Positions 12,620-38,111 of a stretch of DNA of 38,641 bases are shown here, in pieces. Each line of letters starts with the position of its first letter. Position 1 is the first letter of the stretch. A program made the translations under genes and the position numbers. Origin of the DNA: Asaia bogorensis (GTDB lineage Bacteria > Pseudomonadota > Alphaproteobacteria > Acetobacterales > Acetobacteraceae); assembly GCA_945897825.1 (NCBI GenBank), contig CAMDGX010000043.1:1-38641 (forward strand), read 5' to 3'. A model generated the notes under the pieces. The model did not search any database, had not been told where the DNA came from, and saw only the letters and a list, made by a program, of their open reading frames with translations.

Positions 12620-12628
12620 GGAAGGATT

Positions 12629-12652
12629 CTTCTTTTTGTGAACAAAAAGAAG
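12629..12652. terminator. Bidirectional poly-T/A hairpin between convergent genes
   Basis: CTTCTTTTTGT (12629-12639) pairs perfectly with ACAAAAAGAAG (12642-12652) around a GA loop: 11 pairs. It starts 9 bases after the efflux-lipoprotein stop and ends 11 bases before the stop of the opposite gene, so it can end both transcripts. The unit resembles the hairpins at 6373-6398 and 6469-6490. Confidence 0.6.
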
Positions 12653-12663
12653 CGCTTTCTTTC

Positions 12664-13332
12664 TTAGCTTTTCCCCGGAATTCCCAGTCTCAGCGCCTCT
12701 TGCGGCTGGCGATAGATGTGGAACGCGGCGAACGAGGTTTCATCGGGGCGGTCGGGGTCGTAGGGGTAGATGTTCGGCACGACGGCGGCCAGCGTCCAGT
12801 CGGGGAAGTGGCGGGCGACGTGGGTGGTGAAGCGGCGGTGGCGGACGTGGCGGCTGGGCCAGGAGTGGTCGAGGTCGCTGGCGTAGATGACGACGAAGCG
12901 CCAGGCGTGGGAGAAGAGTGCTTCCATGTAGTCGGCGAAGACGTGGTCTTCCACGAGGTGATAGACGACGTCGAGCGAGAGGCCGAGTTCGGCGGCGATG
13001 AGGCCGGTGCGGTCGGCCATGGGGCGGAACTCGCGGCCCTGCTGGCCGGCAAAGCGGGCGCGACAGCGGGCGATGGCGGCGGGGGCCACGTCGAGGCCGA
13101 CATAGTCGGCGATGTCGATCAAGGCGAGTTGGTTGCCGTCGCCGCAGCCGAACTCGATGGCCGAGGCGATGCCGTTGTCGCGGATCAGGGCGTTGAGGAA
13201 GTCGGCCTTGAAGGTGGCGAGGCGGCCATGGGAGCCGGCGCCGGAGTGGCCGCCGGTCTGGTAGCGGGCTTCCCAGTAGGCGGCGGAGGAGAAATCCGGC
13301 GCGTCGGGGGTGGGGGCAAGGTTTTCCTGCAT
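12664..13332 (-). CDS. Class I SAM-dependent methyltransferase
   Basis: A 222-residue predicted methyltransferase. The SAM-binding motif I is AIEFGCGDGNQL (near residue 60), followed by YVGLDVAPAAIARC (acidic end of strand 2), and LSLDVVYHLVEDHVFADYMEALF in the motif IV-V region. WSSRHVRHRRFTTHV-like basic segments (here WPSRHVRHRRF) may touch the substrate. The N-terminal DFSSAAYWEARYQTGGHSGAGS resembles methyltransferases found in glycan or capsule clusters, but no such cluster adjoins. Substrate unknown. The gene is alone, convergent with the efflux lipoprotein and divergent from the TerB-like gene. Confidence 0.8.
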   Translation of the reverse strand: MQENLAPTPDAPDFSSAAYWEARYQTGGHSGAGSHGRLATFKADFLNALIRDNGIASAIEFGCGDGNQLALIDIADYVGLDVAPAAIARCRARFAGQQGREFRPMADRTGLIAAELGLSLDVVYHLVEDHVFADYMEALFSHAWRFVVIYASDLDHSWPSRHVRHRRFTTHVARHFPDWTLAAVVPNIYPYDPDRPDETSFAAFHIYRQPQEALRLGIPGKS

Positions 13333-13378
13333 GGCGCACCTGGGGCGGTTTTGTGCGGTTTTCTCACCCGCGGATGAA

Positions 13379-13419
13379 GGATTGGCTAAGCGCGCTTGCG
13401 TGGATTGGATGTGGATTGG
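13379..13419. repeat. Triplicated GGATTGG motif in a divergent promoter gap
   Basis: GGATTGG occurs at 13379-13385, 13402-13408 and 13413-13419 on the + strand; the last two are 11 bases apart (one helical turn). They lie in the 177-base gap 13333-13509 between divergent genes and could be binding sites for a regulator of either. No other structure is seen in this gap. Confidence 0.3.
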
Positions 13420-13509
13420 ATTCTGGCGCGCGGGCGTCTATGTGCGTGCGAGCAAAGCGACCTCGCGGGGCCTCGGCCTCGCCGCGGCGCACCTGAACCG
13501 GAGCAGACC

Positions 13510-14079
13510 ATGAGCAACGAACCCCTCGACGACCGCCGCCGGGCCCTGGAGGAGGCGTTCTTCGCCAAGCAGGACGCGCTGCTGCGCAAGCGGCTGGCGG
13601 AGCCCGCCGAGGTGCGGGCGAAGAAGGAGGCGTTCTCGGCCGTCTCCGGCATCACCGACGATGCGGTGCTGGAGGCCCTGGTGAAGCTCGACATTTCCGC
13701 CGAGACGCTGGCGGCGATCGCGCTGGTGCCGCTGGTGGCGGTGGCGTGGGCGGATGGCAGTATCGACGCCAAGGAGCGCGCGGCGGTGCTGCGCGGGGCG
13801 AGCGAGAGCGGGCTGGCGCCGGGGGCGGCGGGCTACGGCATGCTGGAGACGTGGTTGCAGTCGGCGCCGCCGGCGTCGCTGGTGGAGTCGTGGAAGGCGT
13901 ATATCGCCACCATCACGGCCGGGCTCGACCATGCCGGCAAGCGGGCGCTGCAGGCGCCGATCATGGACCGGGCGCGGGCGGTGGCGCTGGCGGCGGGCGG
14001 GTTCCTGGGGATCGGCATCCGCATCTCCGACGCCGAGGAGAAGGTGCTGGCCGACCTGGCGCGCGCCTTCGGGGTCTGA
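13510..14079 (+). CDS. TerB-like all-helical protein of unknown function
   Basis: A 189-residue cytoplasmic protein, predicted almost entirely helical and alanine-rich. The middle segment LVPLVAVAWADGSIDAKERAAVLRGASESGL resembles TerB-type modules (hydrophobic helix, then ADGxID..E acidic turn), and a second similar turn ISDAEEKVLADLARAF ends the protein. The N-terminus is strongly charged (RRRALEEAFFAKQDALLRKRLAE). TerB-like folds are linked to tellurite resistance and stress systems, but no other ter gene is present, so no function is assigned. The ATG at 13510 follows GGAGCAG. The next gene starts 19 bases downstream and may share its transcript. Confidence 0.7.
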   Translation: MSNEPLDDRRRALEEAFFAKQDALLRKRLAEPAEVRAKKEAFSAVSGITDDAVLEALVKLDISAETLAAIALVPLVAVAWADGSIDAKERAAVLRGASESGLAPGAAGYGMLETWLQSAPPASLVESWKAYIATITAGLDHAGKRALQAPIMDRARAVALAAGGFLGIGIRISDAEEKVLADLARAFGV

Positions 14080-14098
14080 GCGCCGGCTGACGGCCGCG

Positions 14099-14929
14099 AT
14101 GGAGGTCACGCCGCTTTCACCGACCTTGGCCGCGCGTGTCGACGGGCTCGACATCGCGGCCGGGATGGGGGGCGAGGCTGCCGCGGCGGTGCGGGCGGCG
14201 CTCGCGCGACACCAGGTTCTGGTGATCCCGGGCCAGCGGATCGACGACGCGGCGCAGGTGGCGTTCAGCGAGGCGTTCGGGGCGTTGGAAACGACGCGGG
14301 CGGGCGCCGACGGGGCGGGCAGCAAGCTGATCGTGCTGTCGAATGTCGGGCCGGACGGGGGCATCGTGGCGGCCACCGACCGGCAGGTGCTGAACGGTCG
14401 CGCCAACCAGGCGTGGCACCACGACAGCAGCTTCAAGCCGGTGCCGGCGCGCATCTCGATCCTCTCGGCGCGGGAGATTCCGAGCCGGGGCGGCAATACC
14501 GAGTTTGCCAGCATGCGCGCGGCGTTCGCGGCGCTTGATGCCGACGAGCAGGCGCGGCTGCGGCCGCTGGTGGCGGTCCATGATTTCGCGTGGTCACGCC
14601 GGCGGGTCGACCCGGCGCTGGTGACCGAGGCGGAGGCGGCGGCGAACCCGCCGGTGCGCCAGAAGGTGGTGCGCGACGAGAACCCGCACGGGGCCGCGCT
14701 CTACCTGGGGGCTCATGCGCGCCGCATCGAGGGCTGGGACGAGGACGCGGCGCGGGCGCTGATCGAGCGGCTGGTGGCGTTCGCGGGAGAGGCGCGGTTC
14801 GTCTATTCGCATCGCTGGTCGGTCGGCGATGTGCTGGTGTGGGACAACCGGGCGGTGATGCATCGCGCGACGCCATTCGCGGCGACCGGCGAGCGGCGGC
14901 GGATGGTGCGCACGACGGTGGCGGGATAG
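14099..14929 (+). CDS. TauD/TfdA-family Fe(II)/2-oxoglutarate dioxygenase
   Basis: A 276-residue non-haem iron dioxygenase. The facial triad is visible: HxD in QAWHHDSSF, and the distal His in NRAVMHRATPF; the 2-oxoglutarate-binding arginine is probably in RRRMVRTTV at the C-terminus. The N-terminus, MEVTPLSPTLAARVDGLDIA, matches the start of TauD/TfdA proteins (ltp.iGaev.GvDl). Such enzymes use Fe(II) and 2-oxoglutarate to cleave or hydroxylate taurine, phenoxyacetates and similar compounds. No transporter or regulator marks the substrate. The ATG at 14099 lies 19 bases after the TerB-like stop; the DHCW cupin follows 28 bases later. Confidence 0.92.
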   Translation: MEVTPLSPTLAARVDGLDIAAGMGGEAAAAVRAALARHQVLVIPGQRIDDAAQVAFSEAFGALETTRAGADGAGSKLIVLSNVGPDGGIVAATDRQVLNGRANQAWHHDSSFKPVPARISILSAREIPSRGGNTEFASMRAAFAALDADEQARLRPLVAVHDFAWSRRRVDPALVTEAEAAANPPVRQKVVRDENPHGAALYLGAHARRIEGWDEDAARALIERLVAFAGEARFVYSHRWSVGDVLVWDNRAVMHRATPFAATGERRRMVRTTVAG

Positions 14930-14957
14930 GATTTCCCGCGCAACAGGAGTGCCGGCC

Positions 14958-15287
14958 GTGCAGATGAGCGATATCCCCTTCGGGACCACCGACTGGGCCG
15001 CGGTGCCGCGCACCGAGCATCCCGGCGAGACCGGCGTGGCGCATTGGCGGACTCGGCAGTTCGGGACGATCCGGGTGCGGATGGTGGAGTATTCCGCCGG
15101 CTATCTCGCGGACCACTGGTGCGAGAAGGGGCATATCCTGCTGTGCCTGTCGGGCGAACTGGAGACGGAGCTGGCCGACGGGTCGGTGGCGGTGCTGCGG
15201 CCGGGGATGAGCTACCAGGTGGCGGATGGGGCGATGGCGCATCGCAGCCGGACGAAGGTCGCGACGACGCTGTTCATCGTGGACTAG
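14958..15287 (+). CDS. DHCW-motif cupin-fold protein
   Basis: A small single-domain cupin of about 109 residues. The motif ADHWCEKGHILLCLSGELETEL holds the DHWCEKGH signature for which this family is named, with GSVAVLRPGMSYQVADG forming the second cupin strand pair. Function unknown; members are presumed cytoplasmic. Three in-frame starts compete: GTG 14949, GTG 14958 and ATG 14964. AGGAG at 14945-14949 is 8 bases before GTG 14958, which is therefore preferred; the ATG would be 14 bases away. It lies 28 bases after the dioxygenase and is probably co-transcribed. Confidence 0.85.
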   Translation: MQMSDIPFGTTDWAAVPRTEHPGETGVAHWRTRQFGTIRVRMVEYSAGYLADHWCEKGHILLCLSGELETELADGSVAVLRPGMSYQVADGAMAHRSRTKVATTLFIVD

Positions 15288-15296
15288 GCAGCAAGG

Positions 15297-15368
15297 CCAG
15301 GGCGTTGCCCTGGACCCACCAGGGGCCAAGCCCCTGGACCTTAATTCATTGAAAAAAAAGAGGTCCAG
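15297..15368. repeat. GC-rich multi-hairpin intergenic element with alternative pairings
   Basis: Between the convergent cupin and MaoC genes. Hairpin 1: CCAGGGC/GCCCTGG (15297-15303/15307-15313), loop GTT. Hairpin 2: CCAGGGGC/GCCCCTGG (15319-15326/15330-15337), loop CAA. Hairpin 3: CTGGACCT (15334-15341) with AGGTCCAG (15361-15368) across an AT-rich loop; its left arm overlaps the right arm of hairpin 2, so the two exclude each other. The loop of hairpin 3 holds a run of eight A. It probably ends transcription from both sides. Confidence 0.7.
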
Positions 15369-15452
15369 AGGCTCGACCCGTCCCGCGAAGGCGCGCGCCG
15401 GACCAAGCGGGGTTGCGCAGGGCCCGCCCTTGCGGTTGCTTGTTCTCGCGCT

Positions 15453-16289
15453 TCACACGCCCACGGTCGCTTCCATGCACAGCGCGCCGTCGTTGCGGCG
15501 GACCCAGAGCTTGGCGCCGGTGGGGTCGGGGGCTCCGTGCACGGTAAAGGGCGTGGTGTCGAACACCGGCGACAGGGCGCGGAAGCTGAAGGATTTCACC
15601 TTGCGGGTGTCGTTGCGGCAATACAGGTCGAGCAACAGCGTGGCCAGCAGCGGACCGTGGACGATCAGGCCGGGGTAGCCTTCCTCGGTGGTGACGTAGC
15701 GGCGGTCGTAGTGGATGCGATGGCCATTGAAGGTCAGGGCGGAGTAGCGGAACAGCAGGACATCGTCTGGCGTGATGGCGCGGTGCCAGGGCGAGGTGGC
15801 GTCAGCCTGTTTGGGGGTGGGCGCGGCGTCCCCGGGGGCTGGCGCGTCCCGGTAGACGATGTCGTGTTCCTCGGTGATGGCGAGGCCGGCGGGGCCGGAG
15901 ATTTCGTGGCGTACGAGGACGAAGACCAAGGTGCCGGAGCGGCCGGTCTTGGCCGAGACGTCGGCGATGGTGGAGGTGCGGCGGACGGTGTCGCCGAGGT
16001 GCAGCGGGGCATGGAAGTGCAGCCGCCCGCCGGCCCACATGCGGCGGGGCAGGGGAACCGGCGGGAGAAATCCGCCGCGTTTGGGGTGGCCGTCAGGGCC
16101 GATCTCGGACTGGCGGGCGCGGGGCAGGAAATGGAGCCAGTGCCAGAGCGGGGGCAGGGGGTCGCCGGCGGCGGGGGCAGGGTCGTCGCGGTCCAGCGTG
16201 GCCGAGAGGGCAGCGGAGGGGAACAGGCCGAGATGGTCGTCCAGGGTTTCCTGCCGTCCGATCCAGGTTTTCAGATGGTCGATGTCCAT
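15453..16289 (-). CDS. MaoC-like (FAS1-type) acyl-CoA dehydratase, mesaconyl-C4-CoA hydratase-like
   Basis: A 278-residue double-hotdog protein. The N-terminal half carries an HTD2/FAS1-type domain (LWHWLHFLPRARQSEIGPDGHPKRGGFLPPVPLPRRMWAGG, split over two strands), the C-terminal half a MaoC-like one with LFRYSALTFNGHRIHYD, whose His/Asp region matches the hydratase catalytic site, and GYPGLIVHGPLLATLL. This layout matches mesaconyl-C4-CoA or itaconyl-CoA hydratases and related enzymes of C5-dicarboxylate catabolism. No CoA-transferase or lyase adjoins, so the substrate is open. AGGGGAG lies about 8 bases before the ATG at 16289. The gene stands alone. Confidence 0.85.
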   Translation of the reverse strand: MDIDHLKTWIGRQETLDDHLGLFPSAALSATLDRDDPAPAAGDPLPPLWHWLHFLPRARQSEIGPDGHPKRGGFLPPVPLPRRMWAGGRLHFHAPLHLGDTVRRTSTIADVSAKTGRSGTLVFVLVRHEISGPAGLAITEEHDIVYRDAPAPGDAAPTPKQADATSPWHRAITPDDVLLFRYSALTFNGHRIHYDRRYVTTEEGYPGLIVHGPLLATLLLDLYCRNDTRKVKSFSFRALSPVFDTTPFTVHGAPDPTGAKLWVRRNDGALCMEATVGV

Positions 16290-16405
16290 TTCGGTGCTCC
16301 CCTGTCGTGGGTGGGAGGGGCCCTGCGCGGCCGTGGCCTGTCAAGACGGCTTGCGGCGGCGCGGGAATGCTGCTGCGCTGCGGGAAACCCCAGGGGGAGA
16401 CCATC

Positions 16406-17209
16406 ATGAACGAGATCAACCGCAACGAGGCGATGTCGGCCCCGGCAAGCGCCGATACGCGGCCGGTGCGCGAGCAGGTGAGTGCCGCAGAGTGGCAGGC
16501 GCGCGTGGACCTGGCCGCCTGCTACCGGCTGGTGCACCACTACGGCATGGACGAGATGGTGGCGAACCACATCTCCGTTCGCGTGCCGGGCGAGGAAGGG
16601 ACGTTCCTGCTGAACCCATACGGGCTGCTGTACGACCAGATGACGGCGTCGTGCTTCGTGAAGGTGAACGACGCGGGCGACGTGCTGTTCGACCCGACCG
16701 GCCTGGGCTGCAACAAGGCCGGGTTCGTGATCCATTCCGCCGTGCACATGGCGCGGCACGACGTGGATTGCGTGATCCATACGCACAGCCTGGCGGGCAT
16801 GGCGGTGAGTGCCATGAAGGTCGGGCTGCTGCCCCTGGCGCAGTCGGCGATGCGGTTCATCGACATCGCCTACCACGAGTTCGAGGGGCCGGCGCTGCAC
16901 CTCGCGGAGCGGGCGCGGCTGGTGGAGCATCTCGGCGACCGCGAGGTGATGATCCTGCGCAACCATGGGCTTCTGGTGACGGGGGCGTCGATCGCCGAAG
17001 CGTTCAACAACATCTTCCGGCTGGAGCGGGCCTGCCAGCTGCAGGTGATGACGCTGTCGTGCAACACGGAACTGCACATGCCCTCGCAGGAGGCGGTGCT
17101 GGAGACCAACCGGCTGTTCAAGCCGACCGGGATGCGCCGGCGGGGGCTGCTGGAGTGGCCGGCGCTACTGAAGCGCCTGGACGGGATCGATCCCAGCTAC
17201 CGCGACTGA
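16406..17209 (+). CDS. Class II aldolase/adducin-family protein (second copy)
   Basis: A 267-residue class II aldolase-fold protein, longer than the one at 7878-8513 and of a different subfamily. It contains YGMDEMVANHISVRVPG, the metal site HTHSLAGMAVSA, and RNHGLLVTGASIAEAFNNIFRLERACQLQ. This long form resembles adducin-head-like proteins often annotated only by family; catalysis is unproven. GGGGGAG lies about 5 bases before the ATG at 16406. A HAD phosphatase starts 2 bases after its stop, suggesting a two-gene unit handling a phosphorylated sugar or related compound. Confidence 0.88.
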   Translation: MNEINRNEAMSAPASADTRPVREQVSAAEWQARVDLAACYRLVHHYGMDEMVANHISVRVPGEEGTFLLNPYGLLYDQMTASCFVKVNDAGDVLFDPTGLGCNKAGFVIHSAVHMARHDVDCVIHTHSLAGMAVSAMKVGLLPLAQSAMRFIDIAYHEFEGPALHLAERARLVEHLGDREVMILRNHGLLVTGASIAEAFNNIFRLERACQLQVMTLSCNTELHMPSQEAVLETNRLFKPTGMRRRGLLEWPALLKRLDGIDPSYRD

Positions 17210-28358: not shown

Positions 28359-28703
28359 TCAGGCCCCGGCCGCGGGGTTCATCTGGCGGGAGACGGCCTC
28401 GAACGCGTCGGAGATGAAGGGCGGGCGCTTGTAGAGACCCTTCATCCAGCTCGCGAGCATGCACAATTCCTCAAGCCGCAACACCTCGTCCAGCGTGCCG
28501 TCCGGAAAGCGCACCGCGAAGCTGGCGGCGATGATCTCCATCGTCTCCTCGACCTGCTCGATCGAGAGGCCAAGGTCGGATTCCAGCACGGCATTTCGGG
28601 TCAGGCGCGCCTCCTCGATGCCGAAGTCGTCGCGGATCAGCTTCACGATCCAGCGGAACATGGTCATCCAGTTGGTCACGCCGTCGATCGGTCGGGCGAG
28701 CAT
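28359..28703 (-). CDS. Acyl-carrier-like (DUF1493-type) small protein
   Basis: A helical protein of about 114 residues. WIVKLIRDDFGIEEARLTRNAVLESDLGLSIEQVEETMEIIAASF (read in pieces) follows the acyl-carrier pattern: first helix, long loop, DLGL at the start of helix 2, then an acidic helix and hydrophobic stop. The usual DSL phosphopantetheine site is replaced by LSI, so it may not be loaded. The C-terminal part (RLEELCMLASWMKGLYKRPPFISDAFEAVSRQM) is unusual. The start is uncertain: ATG 28703 gives 114 residues, ATG 28667 or 28661 would keep the whole carrier-like part; none has a clear ribosome site. The proline-racemase-family gene follows 34 bases later. Confidence 0.6.
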   Translation of the reverse strand: MLARPIDGVTNWMTMFRWIVKLIRDDFGIEEARLTRNAVLESDLGLSIEQVEETMEIIAASFAVRFPDGTLDEVLRLEELCMLASWMKGLYKRPPFISDAFEAVSRQMNPAAGA

Positions 28704-28706
28704 GCA

Positions 28707-28714
28707 GGGCAGGG
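28707..28714 (+). other. KOPS-like octamer GGGCAGGG
   Basis: Second GGGNAGGG match close to the dif-like site, about 540 bases before it and pointing to it. It lies just upstream of the acyl-carrier-like gene in the 48-base gap to the divergent GNAT gene. Confidence 0.35.
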
Positions 28715-28751
28715 TAGGCAACAAGGTGAAACACGAGGTTAATGCCCGACC

Positions 28752-29219
28752 ATGAGCGACACGATCACGATTCGCCCGCTCTCCGAGGTGCCGCAGGCCG
28801 GGCCGACGGCCGCGCTGTGGCTGTTCGAGGAATGGGGCCACCGCTATGCCGGCCGCACGCCCGCCATGGCGATCGAGCTGTTCGCCCAGCGCGCCAACTC
28901 CGACCGGCTGCCGATGGCCTGGATCGCGCTCGAAGGCGCAACGCCGGTCGCCACCGCCAGCCTGATGGACATCGAGCGGCCCGGCGACGAGTTCGGTCCA
29001 TGGGTCGGCGGCGTGTATGTCCTGGCCTCGCATCGCGGCCGCGGCCTGGCCACGCGGCTGATGGCGGTGCTGGAGGCCGCCGCACCGCGCCTGGGCGCGC
29101 GACGCCTGCTGCTCAGCGCAGCAGCACCGTCGCTGTATCTCGCCCTCGGCTACGAACCGACCGGCGCGACCAAGAACGGCGAGCCGGTGATGGAAAAGCG
29201 TCTGGTGCCGCCGGGCTAG
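28752..29219 (+). CDS. GNAT-family N-acetyltransferase
   Basis: A 155-residue acetyltransferase. The acetyl-CoA-binding motif A is VYVLASHRGRGLATRLMAVLEAAA (RGRGLA matches Q/RxxGxG/A), preceded by a beta-strand pair (WIALEGATPVATASLMD) and followed by RRLLLSAAAPSLYLALGYEPTG, the usual GNAT C-terminal strand with YxxLGY. Substrate unknown. It is divergent from the acyl-carrier-like gene (48-base gap) and convergent with the AllE-type gene; the dif-like site lies 33 bases after its stop. Confidence 0.88.
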   Translation: MSDTITIRPLSEVPQAGPTAALWLFEEWGHRYAGRTPAMAIELFAQRANSDRLPMAWIALEGATPVATASLMDIERPGDEFGPWVGGVYVLASHRGRGLATRLMAVLEAAAPRLGARRLLLSAAAPSLYLALGYEPTGATKNGEPVMEKRLVPPG

Positions 29220-29252
29220 GGCGCCGCATCGGCGCCTGTCATCCGCGCACGA

Positions 29253-29280
29253 AAGTCGCATAAGGTATATTATGGAAAGA
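29253..29280 (+). other. Candidate dif site (XerC/XerD chromosome-dimer resolution site)
   Basis: A 28-base AT-rich sequence in the 75-base gap between convergent genes. XerC-type arm AAGTCGCATAA (29253-29263), centre GGTATA (29264-29269), XerD-type arm TTATGGAAAGA (29270-29280). Against the E. coli dif it matches 7/11, 5/6 and 7/11; over the central 18 bases (CGCATAA-N-GTATATTATG) 17 agree. CATAA and TTATG form the expected inverted arms around a 6-base centre. Its surroundings exceed 65% GC, so the match is very unlikely by chance. KOPS-like octamers and a strand-composition change support a terminus here. The outer XerD-arm bases differ from E. coli, so the lineage consensus should be compared. 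Confidence 0.8.
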
Positions 29281-29291
29281 AACGACCGTGG

Positions 29292-29311
29292 ATGTCAGCC
29301 CAGGCTGACAT
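29292..29311. terminator. Perfect palindrome at the allE stop codon
   Basis: ATGTCAGCC (29292-29300) and GGCTGACAT (29303-29311) pair perfectly around a CA loop: nine pairs. The palindrome spans the last codons and stop of the - strand AllE-type gene and ends 11 bases from the dif-like site. In the - direction a T-rich stretch comes only about 10 bases later, so it is an imperfect terminator. Confidence 0.45.
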
Positions 29312-30077
29312 CGCGGTTCACGTCCTTGTAGAGCAGATACGCCGCATCCCCCCAGCCCGTGGGATAGAACTGCTGCGGGCAGTACGGCCCCATCCAGATG
29401 AAGTCGCCCTTCCACACCTCGTGCCAGGTGCGCCCAAGCAGATACATCCCCTGGCCGGACAGCATCAGCAGCCCGTGCTCCATGATGTGCGTCTCGACCA
29501 TCGCGAAATGCGTGCCGGGCTTGAAGTGCAGGATGTTGACCGCGAAGTCGTAGCGCAGGTCTTCCTCCGGCAGCAGGTGCTGCCACGAGCGGCCGATCGT
29601 GTGGCGCAGCGTATGCGCCACATCGGCCGTGTGGCGCACCACGGCGGGCGGTGCCTCCAGCCCGGCATCGTCGAACTTCTTGCGGATCCAGGCGATCCGC
29701 GCGCCGGACGCCGTCTCGAGCCGGTGCGCGGTGCCCGGCGGCACATAGGCATAGCCGCCGACGCCGAGCGCGTGCCGCACACCGCCGACCATTATATCGC
29801 ATGATCCTTCTACAACATAATAAAAATGCGATATCCCGTCCACCCGCCGCGGCACGCCGGTTCCGCCCGCTGGCATCACCAGCAGCGCCTGGACGAACTT
29901 CGCCCCCATCTGCGGCGAGGTCTGGAAGAACACCTTCGTGCCGGGCCACCCCGGCAGTCGGCTCTCCAGGATGCCCTCCGGCGGCATCACCGCGAAGTTC
30001 GGGTCCACCATCGAGCGGTTGTGCCCGGCCACGCCGGGCGGAATCGTGCCTTGTTCCATGGGCTTTCCGTCCTTCAT
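29295..30077 (-). CDS. (S)-ureidoglycine aminohydrolase-like bicupin (AllE family)
   Basis: A 260-residue bicupin matching AllE/UGHY, which releases ammonia from ureidoglycine late in allantoin degradation. Each half has a cupin: the first with ISHFYYVVEGSCDIMVGGVRHALGVGGYAYVPPGTAHRLE, read in pieces, the second with ILHFKPGTHFAMVETHIMEHGLLMLSGQGMYLL, whose His/Glu residues fit the manganese site. The end WGDAAYLLYKDVNRD is a family hallmark. Length equals E. coli AllE (261). The ATG at 30077 overlaps the amine oxidase stop (ATGA). No allantoinase or allantoate hydrolase is in the window, so the substrate may differ. A run of AT-rich codons lies at 29788-29834. Confidence 0.88.
   Translation of the reverse strand: MKDGKPMEQGTIPPGVAGHNRSMVDPNFAVMPPEGILESRLPGWPGTKVFFQTSPQMGAKFVQALLVMPAGGTGVPRRVDGISHFYYVVEGSCDIMVGGVRHALGVGGYAYVPPGTAHRLETASGARIAWIRKKFDDAGLEAPPAVVRHTADVAHTLRHTIGRSWQHLLPEEDLRYDFAVNILHFKPGTHFAMVETHIMEHGLLMLSGQGMYLLGRTWHEVWKGDFIWMGPYCPQQFYPTGWGDAAYLLYKDVNRDVSLG
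29794..29834. repeat. AT-rich inverted repeat inside the allE-type gene, resembling the dif-like site
   Basis: ATATCGCAT (29794-29802) and ATGCGATAT (29826-29834) are perfect inverted copies around a 23-base AT-rich spacer. On the - strand, TCGCAT and TATTATG flank three bases (29816-29831); the dif-like site has the same two blocks flanking six bases. The - strand also holds TTATGTTGTAG, 8/11 matches to the E. coli XerD arm. The codons are AT-ending (TTT TAT TAT GTT GTA GAA GGA TCA), unlike the rest of the gene, yet encode the conserved family segment HFYYVVEG. Confidence 0.55.
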
Positions 30078-32053
30078 TCAGCGCAGCAGGAAGGTGCCGG
30101 CGCGCAGCACGATGCAGCCGCCTTGCCCTCGGTGTCCCGCGGCAAATCCATCGCCGGGTTGGCCGACAGGAAGCCGTTCGGCTTCAGCATGAAGCCCGCA
30201 TACTCTACCGGCATGATCGGCATGTCCTCGGGTTTGCACACATGGGTGTGGCCGAAATTGTGCCACACCACGACATCGGCGTTCTCGATCGACCGGTTGG
30301 CCTGGATCCAGCTCGGCAACCCCTCCCCGCCCCCGTTCGGCCCGGCCGGAAGCTGGTTGGGGAACTCACCGGCCGGAAACCGCTCCGCCGGATCGTAGGC
30401 CGTCACCCACACATGCTTGGTGGCGAACCCCGCCCTGCCCCGAATCGCGCTGCCTTCCTGCGCCAGCAGCAGCGGCGAGGCCTGCACGGCGAGCTTGTAC
30501 GCCGGCGCATTCCCGACTACGTTGCGCTTGTTCGGATTGGAGATTTTCCAGTAGCGCCCGGTCCGCCCCTCGGCCTCCCGCGCCGCATCGCGCTCGCGCG
30601 CCAGCACCCTGGACGTGGTGTCAAATACGTTGCCGTACGGATTATCCTTGCCCCACGGCCGCGGCACGAACTCATGCTCGCTGACCGTGTTGCCTTCGCC
30701 GTCCACGCTCATGTGCAGCCGCGCGCAGAAGAAATGCTGATGCGTCGGCCCGCCCAGCCCCTCGCCGATCATGCCGCCCCACGGATAGGCCTCGCCCGGC
30801 ATCACCGCCGCCGTCTGGATGATGCCGGTCAGCTTGGCCTCCAGCTGGATCGTGCCGTCCTGATACAGGTACCAGTAGAACCCATAATCATAGTTGCCGA
30901 CGGTGGCGAAGAAGCTGATCACCAGCCGGCGCGACCGCCGCACCTCGCGCACATCGTTGCGGAATTCATAGTGCTTCCAGAGGGTCCCGTAATCCTCCTC
31001 ATGCATGCAGACAGCATTGGTCATCAGGAATGGCGCGCCGAAATCATCCGCCGCCGGGATGTCGAAATAGTGGATGGTGCCCAGGCAATCGCAGCCCAGT
31101 TCCAACGAATTGGCGAGCTTGCCTAATCCATATTCCCCGGCATCGAAGGCATTCTTCCAGAAATGGTTGGTGGTCGGGTCGGCATACGGAACCACCATCT
31201 CGGCAATTGAGGCGCGATGGATGACCGGCCGCGCAACCCCCTGGTCGACCAGCGAAAGCCGATGCAGCACCAGCCCCTCGCGCGGCGTGAACCCAACCCG
31301 GAAGCGCCAGTTCTGCCAGGTCACGTCCCAGCCATCGACCGTGAAGGACGGCCCCTCGGGCTGCACGATCGACAGCGGCTTGAGGTCGGTGCGCGTCGGC
31401 GGCAGCGAGGCCGGATCGTAGTTGCGCTTGGTCCGTGGCACCGGGATCGCCACGGGGTCGTCCACCAGCGTCAGGATCCGCTCGCCGATCAGGTCGACGA
31501 CGGCCACCACGCCCTCGATCGGATGGGCATAGCCATTGTCCTTCGGCCCCTCGCGCCAATACGCCACCGCCCGCACCAGGCGCTTGCCGACCTCCTCCGG
31601 GAAGCCGAAATTGCCGGCCGAGAACGGGTCCACCTGCACCAGCTTCAGGTCCGCATCGGTGATCCCGCGCCGCTTCACGGCGGCCACCCACCGCGGATCG
31701 GACTTCACGATGCGGTCCAGCTTCATGAATTCGTCAAGGATGATCGGCGGCTGCCCCTGGGTTTCCAGCTGTTGGAACGCCGCCACGCGCCCCCCGGTCA
31801 GGTCCAGCAGCACCTCGAAGATGCCGCCGGTTTGCGTATCCAGCAGCACCACCCGCGCCCCACGCACCACTGCCTGGCCGGGCTGGAACGCCAGCACCGC
31901 CGCCTTGTCCGGCTCGCGCAGTTCCACGAGCGTGAAGCGCATCGACGTGCGGAACGCGGCATCACCCGTCACCAGCGCCTGCACCGCGGCGATCTCGCCT
32001 TCGGTCAGCGGGTCCAGCGGATGACGGATGGCGGCGACGGCGAGCGTGTCCAT
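30074..32053 (-). CDS. Copper-containing primary amine oxidase
   Basis: A 659-residue copper/topaquinone amine oxidase, which turns primary amines into aldehydes, ammonia and H2O2. The topaquinone tyrosine is Tyr388 in TVGNYDYGF; copper ligands are the histidines of HQHFFCARLHM and WHNFGHTHV; the catalytic base Asp is near residue 300 (FDAGEYGLGKLANSLELGCDCLG). Length fits the bacterial histamine/phenylethylamine oxidase group. No signal peptide is visible, so it is probably cytoplasmic. The tail SCCAPAPSCCAE (648-659) adds two vicinal Cys pairs not part of the core fold. ATG 32053 follows GGAG by 6 bases; ATG 32065 is less likely. Its stop overlaps the AllE-type start. Confidence 0.95.
   Translation of the reverse strand: MDTLAVAAIRHPLDPLTEGEIAAVQALVTGDAAFRTSMRFTLVELREPDKAAVLAFQPGQAVVRGARVVLLDTQTGGIFEVLLDLTGGRVAAFQQLETQGQPPIILDEFMKLDRIVKSDPRWVAAVKRRGITDADLKLVQVDPFSAGNFGFPEEVGKRLVRAVAYWREGPKDNGYAHPIEGVVAVVDLIGERILTLVDDPVAIPVPRTKRNYDPASLPPTRTDLKPLSIVQPEGPSFTVDGWDVTWQNWRFRVGFTPREGLVLHRLSLVDQGVARPVIHRASIAEMVVPYADPTTNHFWKNAFDAGEYGLGKLANSLELGCDCLGTIHYFDIPAADDFGAPFLMTNAVCMHEEDYGTLWKHYEFRNDVREVRRSRRLVISFFATVGNYDYGFYWYLYQDGTIQLEAKLTGIIQTAAVMPGEAYPWGGMIGEGLGGPTHQHFFCARLHMSVDGEGNTVSEHEFVPRPWGKDNPYGNVFDTTSRVLARERDAAREAEGRTGRYWKISNPNKRNVVGNAPAYKLAVQASPLLLAQEGSAIRGRAGFATKHVWVTAYDPAERFPAGEFPNQLPAGPNGGGEGLPSWIQANRSIENADVVVWHNFGHTHVCKPEDMPIMPVEYAGFMLKPNGFLSANPAMDLPRDTEGKAAASCCAPAPSCCAE
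30321..30328 (-). other. KOPS-like octamer (GGGGAGGG on the - strand)
   Basis: Reads CCCTCCCC on the + strand, so it points left toward the dif-like site about 1 kb away. Lies inside the amine oxidase gene. Confidence 0.3.
30433..30440 (-). other. KOPS-like octamer (GGGCAGGG on the - strand)
   Basis: Reads CCCTGCCC on the + strand, again pointing to the dif-like site. Lies inside the amine oxidase gene. Confidence 0.35.
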
Positions 32054-32125
32054 AGGGGGCTCCATGGCGGAATGGTTGCATCGCAGCATGCCCCGCCGCC
32101 GGCCTCGCACCAAGGCAAAACCGCC

Positions 32126-32914
32126 CTACCCTATCTCCAGCACCATCCCGTCGAACCCCGCCTCCACCCCCGCCGGCAGGTGCGCGCCGAGCCACGCCCA
32201 ATCGAGATCGGTGCCCATGTGCGTCAGGATCGTCCGACGCGGCCGCAGCCGCTCGGCCCATTGCAACACCTGCTCCAGCTTCGCATGGGTATTGTGCGGC
32301 CCCCGCTGGAAGCAGCCGACCACCCAGGTGTCCACGCCCTCCAGCACCGCGAACGCCCGCTCGTCCAGCCGCACCACATCCGTCGAATAGCCGAAGCCGC
32401 CGATGCGCAGCCCCAGCGTGCGCACCATGCCGTGGTCCTGGTCGAACAGCTCGACGGGAATTCCGGCCGGCGCGATCGCGGCGTCAGGCGCCACGATGAC
32501 GGGCGTCATCACCGGGCGATAAAAGCCGGGCGGCTTCCAGGGCCGGAAGGCATAGGGGAAGCGCCCGACAATATCCTCCATCGTTGCCGCCGTGCCGAAC
32601 GCCTCGATCGGCCGGCCGACCACGCGGTTCAGGATGCGAACATCGTCGAGCCCGGTGATGTGGTCGGCATGGGCGTGGGTGTAGAGAATGGCATCAACCC
32701 GCCCGATGCCGGCCGCCAGCAGCTGCGCGCGCATGTCCGGCCCGGTATCGACCAGCAGCGTCGCATCGCCGACCTCGACGGCGATGCTCGTGCGCGTGCG
32801 CCGGTTGCGCGGCTCGGCGGGGTCGCAGACGCCCCAGTCGCCGGTGCCGTCGCGCCCGCCGATCATCGGCACCCCGGCCGAACCGCCGGTGCCGAGCAGC
32901 GTGACCCGGATCAC
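32126..32914 (-). CDS. MBL-fold metallo-hydrolase (PhnP/RNase Z-like)
   Basis: A 262-residue metallo-beta-lactamase-fold protein. The zinc motif is YTHAHADHITGLDD (HxHxDH), with an N-terminal LGTGGSAGVPMIGGRDGTGDWGVCDPAEPRNRRTRTS, read in pieces, of the PhnP/cyclic phosphodiesterase type, and later ligands in LFDQDHGMV and LTHMGTDLDW. This protein is typically encoded after tatD in the alphaproteobacterial metG-tatD block; its exact substrate is unsettled, and a phosphodiesterase role is likely. The GTG start at 32914 overlaps the tatD stop (GTGA). The amine oxidase begins 72 bases after its stop, on the same strand. Confidence 0.9.
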   Translation of the reverse strand: MIRVTLLGTGGSAGVPMIGGRDGTGDWGVCDPAEPRNRRTRTSIAVEVGDATLLVDTGPDMRAQLLAAGIGRVDAILYTHAHADHITGLDDVRILNRVVGRPIEAFGTAATMEDIVGRFPYAFRPWKPPGFYRPVMTPVIVAPDAAIAPAGIPVELFDQDHGMVRTLGLRIGGFGYSTDVVRLDERAFAVLEGVDTWVVGCFQRGPHNTHAKLEQVLQWAERLRPRRTILTHMGTDLDWAWLGAHLPAGVEAGFDGMVLEIG

Positions 32915-33681
32915 GCCGCCTTCGGGAACAGCCGGCGGAAATTCGCCGTGGTCAGGTCGGCCATCTCCCCTGCCCCCATCCCGTGCACCTCGGCCAGCAC
33001 CTTCGCGGTATGCGCCACATGGCCGGGCTCGTTGCGCTTGCCGCGGAACGGCACCGGGGCGAGGTAGGGCGCATCCGTCTCCACCAGCAGCCGCTCCTTC
33101 GGCACGTCGCGCGCGATGTCTCTGATCTCCTGCGATTTCGGGAAGGTCAGGATGCCGGAGAAGCTGATGTAGCCGCCCAGCGCCAGCGCCGCTTCCGCCA
33201 GCCCGCGCCCGGAACTGAAGCAGTGCAGCAGGAACGGAAACGCACCCTGCCCCGCCTCCTCGCGCAGAATGGCGGCGATGTCCTCGTCGGCATCGCGCGC
33301 ATGGATGCACAGCGGCAGGCCGGAGAGCCGTGCGGCGCGGATATGCGCCCTGAACCCCGCCTGCTGCCGGTCGCGCGGCGCCTTGTCGTAGAAGTAATCC
33401 AGCCCGGACTCGCCGATGCCGATCACCTTCGGGTGGTGCGTCTCGGCCACGATCGCCTCCGGCGTCGGCACCTCGCCTTCGCCCGCGTTGTGCGGATGGA
33501 TGCCGACGGTGCACCACACGTTGGGATGCGCCTCGGCCAGCGCGCGCATCTCGGCCGAACGGGTCAGGCGCGTGCCGATCGTCACCATCTCGCCGACGCC
33601 GGCCGCCGCCGCGCGGGCCAGCACGCGCGCGAGGTCCTCGCCCTGGAAGTAGTCGAGGTGGCAGTGGCTATCGATCAGCAC
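32911..33681 (-). CDS. tatD: TatD-family DNase
   Basis: A 256-residue metal-dependent hydrolase of the TatD (YcfH) type, a 3'-5' exonuclease linked to DNA repair. IDSHCHLDYF is the N-terminal metal motif (HxH), GIGESGLDYFYDK holds the bridging Glu, LCIHARDADEDI and LLHCFSSG the further histidines, and LLVETDAPYLAPVPFRGKRNEP the C-terminal Asp motif. The GTG start at 33681 is chosen because the protein then begins MLIDSHCH, as the family does; longer reading enters metG. It starts one base before the metG stop region ends and its stop overlaps the MBL gene start, so translation is coupled. Confidence 0.95.
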   Translation of the reverse strand: MLIDSHCHLDYFQGEDLARVLARAAAAGVGEMVTIGTRLTRSAEMRALAEAHPNVWCTVGIHPHNAGEGEVPTPEAIVAETHHPKVIGIGESGLDYFYDKAPRDRQQAGFRAHIRAARLSGLPLCIHARDADEDIAAILREEAGQGAFPFLLHCFSSGRGLAEAALALGGYISFSGILTFPKSQEIRDIARDVPKERLLVETDAPYLAPVPFRGKRNEPGHVAHTAKVLAEVHGMGAGEMADLTTANFRRLFPKAA

Positions 33682-33682
33682 G

Positions 33683-35218
33683 CTACTCGGCCTCTTCGAC
33701 AAAACGCGGGAACACCCCATGCGGCGGCGGCAGCACCGTGCCCGCCGGCAACGCCGCCGCCAGCGCGTCGAACCCGCGCCCATCCGCCGGCACGCCCAAC
33801 TGGTCGAGCATCGCCGCGGTCTTTTCCGGCATGAACGGCTGCAGCAGCGTCGCCACCGTGCGGATCACGTCGGCCAGCACCCGCAGCACATGCGCCATGC
33901 GCACCGCGTCGGTCTTGCGCAGCGCCCAGGGCGCCTGGCGGTCGATATAGGCGTTGGCGGCGCGGATCACCCGCCAGATCTCCTCCAGAGCCTCGCCGAA
34001 GGCCTGCCGGTCCATCTGCGCCCGCACCGAAGGCAGCAACGCCGCCGCGGAGGCCAGCATTTCCTCGTCTTCCGCCGTGCGCGGCCCGGCCTCCGGCAGC
34101 TTGCCCTCGCAGTTGCGCGCGATCAGCGTAAGCGAGCGCTGGGCGAGGTTGCCCAGGTCGTTCGCCAACTCGACATTCAGCCGCGAAACCAGCGCCTTGC
34201 GCGAGAAGGTTCCGTCGTTGCCGAACGGCACCTCGCGCAGCAGGAAATAGCGCAGCGAGTCCAACCCATAGGAATCGGCCAGTTCCTGCGGGTCCAGCAC
34301 GTTGCCGAGCGACTTGCTCATCTTCTCGCCGGCCACCGTCCACCAGCCATGCGCGAACACCCGCTTCGGCGGCGCCAGCCCGGCGGCCATCAGGAAGGCA
34401 GGCCAATACACGGCATGAAAGCGCAGGATGTCCTTGCCCACCATGTGCACATCGGCCGGCCAGAACCCCCAGCGCTCCGCCGCCTCGTCCGGGAAGCCGG
34501 CCGCCGTGATGTAGTTGGTCAGCGCGTCCATCCACACATACATCACATGCGCCGGGTCGCCCGGCACCGGGATGCCCCACTTGAAGCTGGTGCGGCTGAC
34601 CGACAGGTCGCGCAGCCCGGACTTCACGAAGCTGGTCACCTCGTTGCGCCGCGTCGCCGGCAGGATGAAGTCGGGATTGGCGTCGTAGTAGGCGAGCAGC
34701 CGGTCCTGCCAGGCCGAGAGCCGGAAGAAGTAGCTCGGCTCCACCACCCATTCCACCGGCGCGCCCGATGGCGCCACCTTCGTCCCGTCCGGCCGGGTGG
34801 TCAGCTCGTCCTCGTCGTAGAACGCCTCGTCACGCACCGCGTACCAGCCCTCGTAGCCGCCCAGGTAGATCTCGCCCCGATCAACCAGCCGCTTCCACAG
34901 CTCGGCGCAGGCGCGCTTGTGCCGCTCCTCCGTGGTGCGGATGAAATCGTCGTTGGAAATGCCGATGCGCTGCGTCATCGCCCGGAACATGTCCGAGGTG
35001 CCGTCGGTGAACTGCTGCGGCGTCTGTCCGGCGGCGGCGGCGGCCTGCTCCACCTTCTGGCCGTGCTCGTCCGTGCCGGTCAGGAAGAACACATCGAACC
35101 CGTCCAGCCGCTTGAAGCGCGCCATCACGTCGCAGGCGATCGTGGTGTAGGCGTGGCCGATATGCGGCGCGCCGTTCACGTAGTAGATCGGGGTCGTGAT
35201 ATAGTATTTTGGTTTCAT
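33683..35218 (-). CDS. metG: Methionyl-tRNA synthetase
   Basis: A 511-residue class I synthetase that charges tRNA-Met. TPIYYVNGAPHIGHAYTT carries the HIGH signature and GEKMSKSLGNVLDP the KMSKS loop; FLTGTDEHGQKVEQAA is the conserved editing/active-site segment. There is no CxxC zinc knuckle in the CP region (about 125-160) and no C-terminal tRNA-binding (EMAP-like) domain, so it is the short alphaproteobacterial form. The ATG at 35218 overlaps the holB stop (ATGA). The first codons are AT-rich (AAA CCA AAA TAC TAT), a common feature that eases initiation. Next downstream is tatD. Confidence 0.97.
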   Translation of the reverse strand: MKPKYYITTPIYYVNGAPHIGHAYTTIACDVMARFKRLDGFDVFFLTGTDEHGQKVEQAAAAAGQTPQQFTDGTSDMFRAMTQRIGISNDDFIRTTEERHKRACAELWKRLVDRGEIYLGGYEGWYAVRDEAFYDEDELTTRPDGTKVAPSGAPVEWVVEPSYFFRLSAWQDRLLAYYDANPDFILPATRRNEVTSFVKSGLRDLSVSRTSFKWGIPVPGDPAHVMYVWMDALTNYITAAGFPDEAAERWGFWPADVHMVGKDILRFHAVYWPAFLMAAGLAPPKRVFAHGWWTVAGEKMSKSLGNVLDPQELADSYGLDSLRYFLLREVPFGNDGTFSRKALVSRLNVELANDLGNLAQRSLTLIARNCEGKLPEAGPRTAEDEEMLASAAALLPSVRAQMDRQAFGEALEEIWRVIRAANAYIDRQAPWALRKTDAVRMAHVLRVLADVIRTVATLLQPFMPEKTAAMLDQLGVPADGRGFDALAAALPAGTVLPPPHGVFPRFVEEAE

Positions 35219-36237
35219 GGTGCTTTCGCCGTGCTGGTCGCCAGCATGCTCAGGCCGTTCACCACCGCCTGGCGCTTGTCCAGATAGGCATCCTCGGTCT
35301 CGTGCTGCAGGCGCCGCAGCGCGTGCCACAAATCGACCCAGGCGGAAAGGGGGCGATCGCCGAGCAGCCGTGCCTGGTCCGGATCGCCATGCCCGCGCGC
35401 GGCATCGCGCACCGCGGCCGCGATGCCGCTGGCAAGCAGTTCCATGAAGGTCGCGAACGCATCCTCGTCCCGCCCCAGCGCATCGGCGACCGCATGGGCC
35501 CGCCCGGCGTCGAGCTTGTCCAGGTTGGCCAGCACCTCGTCCACCAGCGCCGCCTGCGCCACCCCCCCGCCCTCGGCCAGCGCGAGCGCGCGCCCGATCG
35601 ACCCCTCGGCCATCCCCGCCAGCCGAGCCGCGTCGTCCGGCGGCAGGTCCGGCGCGTAGCGGGCCAGCAGCGCCCGCACCGTCTCCTCGCCCAGCGGGGC
35701 GAGCGCCAGCCTTCGGCACCGGCTGCGGATGGTCGGCATCAGCCGCCCGGCCGCCGAGCACACCAGCAGCAGGATCGCCCGCGGCGGCGGTTCCTCGAGC
35801 ACCTTCAGCAGCGCGTTGGCGGCATTGCGGTTCATGTCCTCCGCGCCGTCCAGCACGACCACGCGCCAGCCGCCCTCCGCGGGAGTCAGGCGCAGGAAAT
35901 CCCCCACCTTGCGCACGTCGTCGACCACGATCTCGCTGCGCCGCTTGCCCTTGTCGTTCAGCGACCGCTCGACCGTCAGCAGGTCGGCATGGCTCGACGC
36001 CGCGACGCGCTTGAAGGTCGGGTGATCGGCCGCCAGCGCCAGGTCCGCCCCCGGGTCGCCCCCGGCCAGCAGGCGGCGCGCGAAGCGGAACGCCAGCGTC
36101 GCCTTGCCGATCCCCTCCGGCCCGGTAACCAGCCAGGCATGGTGCAGCCGCCCGGAGCGGATCGCCTCGGCCATCATCCCCTCGGTGGCCTCGTGGCCCA
36201 GCAGATGCGGATTGGCCCGCGGCGCCGGCGCGCTCAC
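35215..36237 (-). CDS. holB: DNA polymerase III subunit delta'
   Basis: A 340-residue clamp-loader subunit. LLGHEATEGMMAEAIRSGRLHHAWLVTGPEGIGKATLA (read in pieces) is the delta' start with a P-loop-like GPEGIGKAT; VVVLDGAEDMNRNAANALLKVLEEPP is the Walker B/sensor region and IRSRCRRLAL the conserved SRC motif. The Cys zinc module of E. coli delta' is missing, its place taken by LAADHPTFKRVAASSHAD, as in many alphaproteobacteria. The GTG start at 36237 overlaps the tmk stop (GTGA); longer reading goes into tmk. Coupling with tmk and metG is a conserved arrangement. Confidence 0.95.
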   Translation of the reverse strand: MSAPAPRANPHLLGHEATEGMMAEAIRSGRLHHAWLVTGPEGIGKATLAFRFARRLLAGGDPGADLALAADHPTFKRVAASSHADLLTVERSLNDKGKRRSEIVVDDVRKVGDFLRLTPAEGGWRVVVLDGAEDMNRNAANALLKVLEEPPPRAILLLVCSAAGRLMPTIRSRCRRLALAPLGEETVRALLARYAPDLPPDDAARLAGMAEGSIGRALALAEGGGVAQAALVDEVLANLDKLDAGRAHAVADALGRDEDAFATFMELLASGIAAAVRDAARGHGDPDQARLLGDRPLSAWVDLWHALRRLQHETEDAYLDKRQAVVNGLSMLATSTAKAP

Positions 36238-36860
36238 GCCGCCACTCCGAGCCGCGCGCGCACCGTGTCCAGGATCGCGGCGGCCACCTTGCTCTCGTCC
36301 GGCTCGCCGTCGATCAGCGCGCATCGATCGGGCTCGCCGGCAGCGACCGCGCGGAACCCGTCGCGGATGGTGGCGAAGAACGGCGCGCCCAGCCGCTCGT
36401 ATCGATCCGCCGCCGCCCCGCGCCGCACGAGCCGGGCCAGCGTCGTCTCCACCGAGACATCCAGCACCAGCGTCAGGTCCGGCCGTGCCCGCAGCAACGA
36501 GGTCAGCGTCGCGATGGCGTCGCGATCAGCGCCCTGCCCCCAGCCCTGGTACACCATGGTCGAATCGGCGAACCGGTCGCACACCACCCACATCCCGGCA
36601 TCGAGCGCGGGGCGGATGGTCCGCTCCACATGCTCGGCGCGCGCGGCGAAATGCAGCAGCGTCTCAGCCGGCGCCGACCAGTCAATCTCCCCCCCCAGCA
36701 ACAGGCCGCGCAGATGCTCCGCCCCCGGCGCACCGCCGGGCTCGCGGGTCATCAGCACCGGCAGTCCCATGGCCGACAACGCCTCGGCCAGAAGCCGCGC
36801 CTGGGTGGATTTGCCGCCGCCCTCGCCGCCCTCCAGCGTGATGAACCGCCCCGTACCCAA
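36234..36860 (-). CDS. tmk: Thymidylate kinase (TTG start)
   Basis: A 208-residue dTMP kinase. GRFITLEGGEGGGKSTQARLLAEAL holds the P-loop, MTREPGG the DR(E)PGG motif, VVCDRFADSTMVYQGWG the substrate-binding DRY/F region, and RRGAAADRYERLG the lid. The start must be TTG 36860: two codons upstream, in the same frame, stands the TGA of the preceding dac gene, and no ATG or GTG comes before the P-loop. The TTG lies 3 bases after that stop, so initiation probably depends on ribosomes ending on dac. The stop overlaps holB (GTGA). Confidence 0.95.
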   Translation of the reverse strand: MGTGRFITLEGGEGGGKSTQARLLAEALSAMGLPVLMTREPGGAPGAEHLRGLLLGGEIDWSAPAETLLHFAARAEHVERTIRPALDAGMWVVCDRFADSTMVYQGWGQGADRDAIATLTSLLRARPDLTLVLDVSVETTLARLVRRGAAADRYERLGAPFFATIRDGFRAVAAGEPDRCALIDGEPDESKVAAAILDTVRARLGVAA

Positions 36861-36863
36861 GTG

Positions 36864-38111
36864 TCAGCCGCCGGTCAGGAAGCGCGTGACGACGGCCACC
36901 GCCCGTCCCGGCAGCCCCAGCCGCGCCACGTCCGCCCCGGCCAGCAGCGGCACCTCCAGCTCCGGCACCCCCTGCCCGCTTACGCTAAGCTGCCCAAGCC
37001 GCGTGCCGCGCTGCACCGGCGCCGGCACGGGCGAATCGTAGGCGATCGTCACCTTCGCCCGATTGCGCCAGCCGCGCGGCATGGTCACCACCAAATCCCG
37101 CCCGCCCACCAGCGGCACGGTCGGGCTGGCGCCGAGATGCACCGGCGCCTGCTCCACCACGTCGCCGGCGGTGAACAGCGTCACGTTCTCGAACTCGCGG
37201 AAGCTCCATTCCAGCAGCCGCTCGCTCTCCTCGGAGCGCTCGCGCATCGTGTTCAGCCCGTTGATCATCAGGATCACCCGCCGCCCGCCGCGCTCGGCAC
37301 TGGCAACCAGCCCATACCCGGCCTCTTCGGTATGCCCGGTCTTGAGCCCGTCGGCGAGGTTCTTCTGCACCAGCGGGTTGCGGTTCTGCTGGTCGATACC
37401 GTTGTATTTGAATGACTTCTCCGAGTCGTAATGGTAGTATTCCGGGAAGTCGCGAATGATCCGCCGCGCCAGGATCGCAATGTCGCGCGCGCTGCTGCGG
37501 TGCTCCGGATGCGGCCAGCCGGTGGAGTTGCGGAACACCGTGCGCTCCAGCCCCAGCTCGCGCGCCTTGGCCGTCATCATCTCGGCGAACTGCTCCTCCG
37601 AGCCCGCGATCGCCTCGGCCAGCACGATGCAGGCATCGTTGCCGGATTGGACGATCACCCCGCGGATCAGGTCCTCCACCTTCACGCTGGTGCCGACCTG
37701 CACGAACATCTTGCTGCCGCCCATGCGCCACGCCCGCTCGCTGACCGGCAGCTCCTGCGTCAGCGTCAGCCGGCCGGCGCGCAGCAGCTCATAGACCAGG
37801 TAGGCGGTCATCAGCTTGGTCATCGACGACGGGATCATCGACGCATCAGCGTCCTTCTCCAGCAGCACCGCGCCCGTCACGTGGTCGATGATCACCGCGA
37901 ACTTGGCGGCCGTGTCCAAGGGGCCGAGCGGGGTGGTGGCCGGGCTGCCGGCGGGCAGCGGGCTCGTTGGGCGCGGACGGGCGGGCCGTTGCGCGGCGGC
38001 CGGCGGGCGCTGCGCCGGGCGCGTCTGCTGCGCGGCGGCGGTGAGCGCGGTGCCCGCCAGCAGGACCGGGGCCAGCAGGGCGCGGGCGAGTGCGATGCGG
38101 CGGTGGATCAC
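36864..38111 (-). CDS. D-alanyl-D-alanine carboxypeptidase (PBP5/6 type)
   Basis: A 415-residue penicillin-binding protein that trims the terminal D-Ala of peptidoglycan peptides. Active-site motifs are S96-M-T-K99 (SSMTK), SGN (156-158) and KTG (257-259). A signal peptide (residues 1-27, ALLAPVLLAGTALTAAAQ) is followed by a Pro/Ala/Arg linker of about 35 residues, then the peptidase S11 domain and a beta-rich C-terminal domain. No clear amphipathic membrane anchor is visible at the end (GRAVAVVTRFLTGG may serve). The start is GTG 38111, 8 bases after GAGGAG. The gene follows rlpA by 61 bases. Confidence 0.94.
   Translation of the reverse strand: MIHRRIALARALLAPVLLAGTALTAAAQQTRPAQRPPAAAQRPARPRPTSPLPAGSPATTPLGPLDTAAKFAVIIDHVTGAVLLEKDADASMIPSSMTKLMTAYLVYELLRAGRLTLTQELPVSERAWRMGGSKMFVQVGTSVKVEDLIRGVIVQSGNDACIVLAEAIAGSEEQFAEMMTAKARELGLERTVFRNSTGWPHPEHRSSARDIAILARRIIRDFPEYYHYDSEKSFKYNGIDQQNRNPLVQKNLADGLKTGHTEEAGYGLVASAERGGRRVILMINGLNTMRERSEESERLLEWSFREFENVTLFTAGDVVEQAPVHLGASPTVPLVGGRDLVVTMPRGWRNRAKVTIAYDSPVPAPVQRGTRLGQLSVSGQGVPELEVPLLAGADVARLGLPGRAVAVVTRFLTGG

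Follow-up and report, generated by a model that had tools for sequence, protein, structure and literature searches.

The locus and the candidate dif site

The window, i.e. the whole stretch of 38,641 nucleotides that was analysed, contains two convergent genes separated by a 75-bp intergenic gap (29220-29294, measured between their stops). The left neighbour (28752-29219, plus strand) encodes a GNAT acetyltransferase (Pfam PF00583), and the right neighbour (29295-30077, minus strand) an allE-type (S)-ureidoglycine aminohydrolase, matched by TIGR03214 with 291 bits, above the cut-off. The mechanical ORF list contains three more ORFs that run into or across the gap in other frames (28359-29261 and 29239-29949 on the minus strand, 28742-29263 on the plus strand). 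They were judged to be spurious because they overlap two genes with family matches.

The gap holds a candidate dif site at 29253-29280. The full 28-mer, read directly from the window, is AAGTCGCATAAGGTATATTATGGAAAGA and is divided as AAGTCGCATAA-GGTATA-TTATGGAAAGA, so that a centre of 6 bp is flanked by two arms of 11 bp; the site is homologous to known dif sites. The putative XerC-binding arm AAGTCGCATAA (29253-29263, plus strand) is identical at all 11 positions to the arm of Mesorhizobium loti in Table 1 of Carnoy and Roten. The central hexamer GGTATA (29264-29269, plus strand) is the same as in the published dif of Bradyrhizobium japonicum. The predicted XerD-binding arm TTATGGAAAGA (29270-29280, plus strand) includes TTATGGAAA, which is kept in the seven matching genomes of the genus; its constancy across the wider set of 31 loci considered below is imposed by the search pattern. 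Six of the 11 positions of the arms are complementary, including the inner five, where CATAA and TTATG are palindromic. The stop of the aminohydrolase gene begins 14 bp past the 28-mer.

The sequence-only reading had placed 28 bases with arms around GGTATA at these positions, as an AT-rich site outside genes in DNA of roughly 70% GC, in the convergent gap between a GNAT and an allE-type gene, and had counted agreement with the dif site of E. coli at 17 positions of the 18-base core and at 19 of all 28. The letters and the 75-bp gap between the stops were confirmed exactly, and both counts were reproduced. The site has nine G or C in 28 positions (32%), compared with about 70% in the window. 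However, 133 of the 38,614 windows of 28 bases are at least as AT-rich, and thus this property taken alone is a weak marker of dif. Patches as AT-rich as the site are formed by the 28-base windows starting at 6363-6394, 6447-6474, 12609-12645, 15332-15343 and 29791-29812.

Other published dif sites are closer still. The dif site of B. japonicum USDA 110, listed under Rhizobiales in Table 1 of PMC2731167, agrees with the candidate at all 18 core positions and at 23 of 28 positions overall, has the same hexamer GGTATA and is also intergenic, whereas the outer bases of both arms differ. The M. loti site from the same source (PMC2731167) likewise agrees at 23 of 28 positions. The E. coli site is similar in its 11-6-11 layout, the 17 of 18 core positions, low G+C content and intergenic position; on the other hand, the central hexamer of the candidate begins with G instead of T, and the outer arms differ, which leaves 19 of 28 positions in common.

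Several other structures were observed near the site. A perfect inverted repeat, GATGTCAGCC-CA-GGCTGACATC, at 29291-29312 begins 10 bases past the site and spans the stop of the aminohydrolase gene; its arms are not kept in one genome of the genus (G033) and are kept in part in another (G119). On the minus strand, there is a weak promoter-like match from 29298 to 29269, probably due to chance, whose second hexamer lies inside the site, and a weak terminator-like match whose stem, from 29300 to 29284, adjoins it.

Copy number and conservation

Carnoy and Roten (2009, PMC2731167) assigned dif sites by four criteria: homology, a position close to the skew peak, occurrence across the strains of a species, and single copy. 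The sequence-only reading had interpreted the 28 bases as a candidate dif site and had proposed both a search of the genome for further copies and a comparison with relatives. The draft genome consists of 4,926,293 bases in 208 contigs and is 96.68% complete. When it was searched with the 18-base core of E. coli, with the one differing base left open, only one match with at most three mismatches was obtained, namely the candidate itself, and no further copies were found. This match is exact, while about 7e-6 exact matches would be expected in the draft from base composition. The reversed core also produces one match with at most three mismatches, and thus it is the exactness of the core match that counts, rather than the mere existence of a match. 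When the window was searched with a pattern of 24 positions that was derived from the site and left four of them open, one match was obtained at the same threshold, compared with none in 100 shuffles.

The comparison with relatives yielded near-identical sites at the same place. The site was found in seven of the nine genomes of the genus, including the host, with at most one mismatch in 24 positions. Both genomes without a match are incomplete in this region. In G171, the left flank can be followed to within 32 bases of the end of one contig and the right flank reaches the end of another, and therefore the site falls into an assembly gap. G203 is 68% complete and contains a single 39-base match to the neighbourhood of dif, the region being otherwise lacking.

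The aminohydrolase gene adjoins the site in all seven genomes of the genus that have it, the host included, with the end of its coding sequence 34-44 bp past the start of the matched 24-mer. The GNAT gene adjoins it in five of the seven, again counting the host, and was not found beside dif in G119 (contig C46) and G202 (contig C221). Thus the left flank has changed there, while dif and its right neighbour have stayed.

Beyond the genus, the 23-mer TCGCAKAAGGTATATTATGGAAA, with T or G allowed at one base, was found in 31 records of genome contigs, with one match per fetched stretch. The titles of these records name Acetobacteraceae, Rhodospirillales, Methyloceanibacter, Methyloligella, Hyphomicrobiaceae and other alphaproteobacteria; six of the 31 are probably the same contigs as those of genus-mates, as their lengths indicate. 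One record, G229, is a complete chromosome of 3.23 Mb that contains the identical 23-mer once. In two whole genomes holding the 23-mer, there is one match each with at most three mismatches. A search of 11 genomes gave matches in all 11 at this threshold. Two of them, G143 and G062, which are family members with looser dif sequences, were analysed for polarity; G062 has two matches, and the one with two mismatches was taken.

A family-wide tally, in which 184 of 200 genomes matched with at most three mismatches and 16 did not, was discarded as evidence, since a reversed control pattern matches in many of the same genomes.

Octamer direction and GC skew around the site

Polar octamers pointing to dif have been described in several other systems. 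In Azorhizobium caulinodans, also an alphaproteobacterium, the KOPS GGGNAGGG is reported to be directed to dif (PMC2443382), and in Vibrio cholerae experiments reported in PMC2533119 demonstrated recognition of GGGCAGGG by FtsK. The report on Acetobacter pasteurianus 386B (PMC3751514) describes a predicted dif opposite oriC, between two replichores, and polar octamers that include GGG[C|A]AGGG. This bacterium belongs to Acetobacteraceae, which, judging by the record titles of relatives, is most likely the family of the host as well, and the likeness to its dif is one of description rather than of bases.

The same orientation was observed in the window. All seven copies of the KOPS-type octamer GGGCAGGG to the left of dif are on the plus strand (starting at 7433, 16047, 16152, 16175, 20111, 28345 and 28707; span 7433-28714), and all five copies to the right are on the minus strand (30433, 32968, 33245, 36532 and 36970; span 30433-36977), so that every copy points toward dif. 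The ratio of forward to reverse copies is 7:0 on the left and 0:5 on the right (Fisher p 0.0013). For GGGNAGGG, one of six motifs looked at, the ratios are 11:3 and 0:7; the copies pointing away are at 5110, 17373 and 26843, the last one 2.4 kb from dif. This resembles the situation in A. caulinodans (PMC2443382) and V. cholerae (PMC2533119), and the distribution suggests that the octamers may play the same role here.

Around the 31 loci, GGGCAGGG occurs 68 times toward dif and never away from it, and GGGNAGGG 119 times toward and seven times away. With the window added, the counts for GGGCAGGG are 80 and 0, which places it first among 10,340 octamers having at least 15 copies each, and 29 of the 32 sequences contain at least one copy. 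As several loci come from close relatives, they are not independent of one another; when the window is left out together with the loci assigned to G033 and G119, the counts are 58 and 0 in a set that still includes other genus-mates. If the pivot is placed at the site or shifted by +250 or +500 bp, no copy of GGGCAGGG has the wrong direction, whereas shifts by -250, -500 and +1000 bp produce four, six and eight errors, respectively. Two thousand sets of random pivots had a mean of 27.7 errors and a minimum of 15. In the pooled data, the reversal is bounded between 217 bp to the left and 813 bp to the right of dif.

Over longer distances, the bias toward the site remains strong, with some exceptions. 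On the seven contigs of the genus (G033 without its first 10 kb, and G202 in part), GGGCAGGG is found 93 times toward the site and seven times away, all of the latter at least 5.5 kb from the site; the corresponding counts for GGGNAGGG are 133 and 14. In the 200 kb around the site, GGGCAGGG points toward it 35 times and away six times in G143, and 19 and four times, respectively, in G062. On the 6.48-Mb contig of G143, sampled in 28 stretches, both the skew and the direction of octamers switch near the site at 5.73 Mb and switch back between 1.9 and 2.3 Mb, with exceptions at 1.50, 3.50, 5.75 and 6.30 Mb for the octamers and at 5.69 and 5.77 Mb for the skew. In G229, the ratio of forward to reverse copies of GGGNAGGG is 9:0 in the 20 kb just left of the site and 0:7 in the 20 kb just right of it; summed over 20 sampled stretches, the ratios are 41:9 ahead of the site and 9:45 beyond it. 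Taken together, the octamer direction is the strongest evidence that the site is dif.

An apparent surplus of GGGNAGGG copies pointing away on the XerC side (seven versus none in the 31 loci) was dropped from consideration, because G143 has five such copies on each side.

GC skew was not decisive as a marker of the terminus. The cumulative skew of the window, which is one part of a draft in 208 contigs, peaks at 20,421, 8.8 kb to the left of dif; the median distance between dif and the skew peak given by Carnoy and Roten (PMC2731167) is 7.3 kb. The cumulative maximum is 17.7 kb from the site in G033 and 56 kb from it in G143, where 200 kb were examined. To the left of dif, the skew in G119 is strongly negative. 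In G229, both flanks of the site have positive skew (0.070 and 0.057) while the octamers reverse, and thus skew is the poorer marker of the two. It should be noted that, according to PMC13342612, dif marks the convergence of FtsK translocation and not necessarily the exact place where the forks meet.

The region of the window at approximately 7000-17000 has strongly positive skew, up to 0.30 per kb, with values of 0.23-0.30 at 7-11 kb. The absolute skew in the 28 stretches of G143 is at most 0.052, far below these values, and the local skew of the window looks gene-driven.

Recombination genes, alternative explanations and the proposed role of the site

Predicted genes for both recombinases are present in the genome. 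The product of G000:C99 scores higher with the XerD family profile (310.6 bits) than with XerC (266.2 bits), and the best family for G000:C36 is XerC (292.3 bits); both scores are below the NCBIfam equivalog cut-offs for XerD and XerC. In both proteins, the R, K, H-x-x-R, H and Y motifs, which we take to be the catalytic residues, align with those of solved Xer proteins, including E. coli XerD (1a0p).

The situation with FtsK is less simple. No gamma domain was found in the 208 contigs of the host draft (96.68% complete), and the motor domain has only one match there, of 21 bits, below the cut-off; a tblastn search with the FtsK of a genus-mate gave no match in six contigs of the host or parts of them. 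The gamma domain was observed in six of the eight genus-mates; of the 60 genomes searched, which include the host, 53 have it. The likeliest explanation is an assembly gap, since five of the other six genomes lacking the domain are in at least 370 contigs and the sixth, in 40 contigs, is 71% complete. The intact octamer polarity suggests that the system is in use. Synteny cannot separate a gap from loss, because the ftsK contig of G119 aligns with those of G033 and G171 within ftsK only.

Three other explanations of the site were considered. It could be a chance AT-rich stretch, or a part of a terminator or promoter in the convergent gap, and indeed weak minus-strand matches to both kinds of signal touch or adjoin it; shuffles of the region contain on average 0.3 promoter-like and 0.6 terminator-like matches. 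However, neither chance nor a regulatory function fits well with the preservation of the 23-mer in 31 records from several genera, the single copy in the draft and the reversal of motif polarity at the site, and we regard this explanation as exceedingly improbable. Nor is the site likely to belong to an integrated phage or other mobile element, as a Xer site distinct from the dif of the host. About a quarter of proteobacterial dif sites are reported to lie near mobility genes (Carnoy and Roten, PMC2731167), but the four neighbouring genes examined here belong to ordinary enzyme families, and their position is largely conserved in the genus. A second copy, which would result from integration at dif, is absent from the draft, and a search of viral contigs with one 22-mer pattern gave no exact match. 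Hence we give this possibility almost no credence.

A further possibility is that the site is the dif of a secondary replicon, such as a chromid or megaplasmid, rather than that of the main chromosome. According to PMC13342612, KOPS polarity also reverses at dif in large secondary replicons, and with the draft in 208 contigs this contig may in principle belong to one of them. However, since the site is the sole match in the draft with at most three mismatches, the dif of the main chromosome would then have to be absent, unrecognisable or hidden in a gap. Moreover, the right neighbour is kept in the seven genomes of the genus that have the site, and the identical 23-mer is found on the 3.23-Mb record titled as a complete chromosome. 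We consider a secondary replicon very unlikely.

Thus, the segment 29253-29280 is very probably the chromosomal dif site of this alphaproteobacterium. This is supported by the sequence of the site, which occurs once in the draft and is conserved at a fixed place in the genus, by the KOPS polarity that reverses there, and by the presence of candidate XerC and XerD genes. The dif interpretation of the sequence-only reading therefore stands, with a single copy in the draft, the same place in relatives and octamer polarity that reverses there.

By analogy with the E. coli and Vibrio systems, the site would be bound and cleaved by XerC and XerD, activated by FtsK, and would serve to resolve chromosome dimers. 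In the model described in PMC2533119, FtsK loads on the octamers, travels to dif and activates XerD. Applied to this bacterium, the model would operate as follows. Sister chromosomes that have crossed over an odd number of times would be joined into a dimer. The septal motor FtsK would load on KOPS octamers, here chiefly GGGCAGGG, run toward dif from both sides, join the two copies of dif and activate XerD. XerD and then XerC would exchange strands on the two sides of GGTATA, and the dimer would become two monomers. Strand exchange by XerD first and by XerC second is the usual order.

The set of 31 loci and the window offers a lead about the guide motif of FtsK in this group. Near dif, the variants GGGAAGGG, GGGGAGGG and GGGTAGGG point toward and away from the site 25 and 6, 19 and 3, and 13 and 1 times, respectively, compared with 80 and 0 for GGGCAGGG. 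Conceivably, the motif used in practice is GGGCAGGG, more stringent than GGGNAGGG; if so, the FtsK gamma domain here would read the fourth base. However, this prediction is rather doubtful and is offered only as a lead, because the C form is also the most frequent one, several of the loci come from close relatives and are thus not independent, and farther out in the genus seven of 100 copies of GGGCAGGG point away.

Both dif and polarity of this kind are already in print for Alphaproteobacteria, Acetobacter included, and the site adds no new principle. The data suggest that in G+C-rich genomes like these the position of dif is defined more narrowly by motif polarity than by GC skew. For this bacterium, the site provides an anchor for the terminus region in a draft that is otherwise fragmented, as well as the correct pivot when the strand polarity of the window is read.
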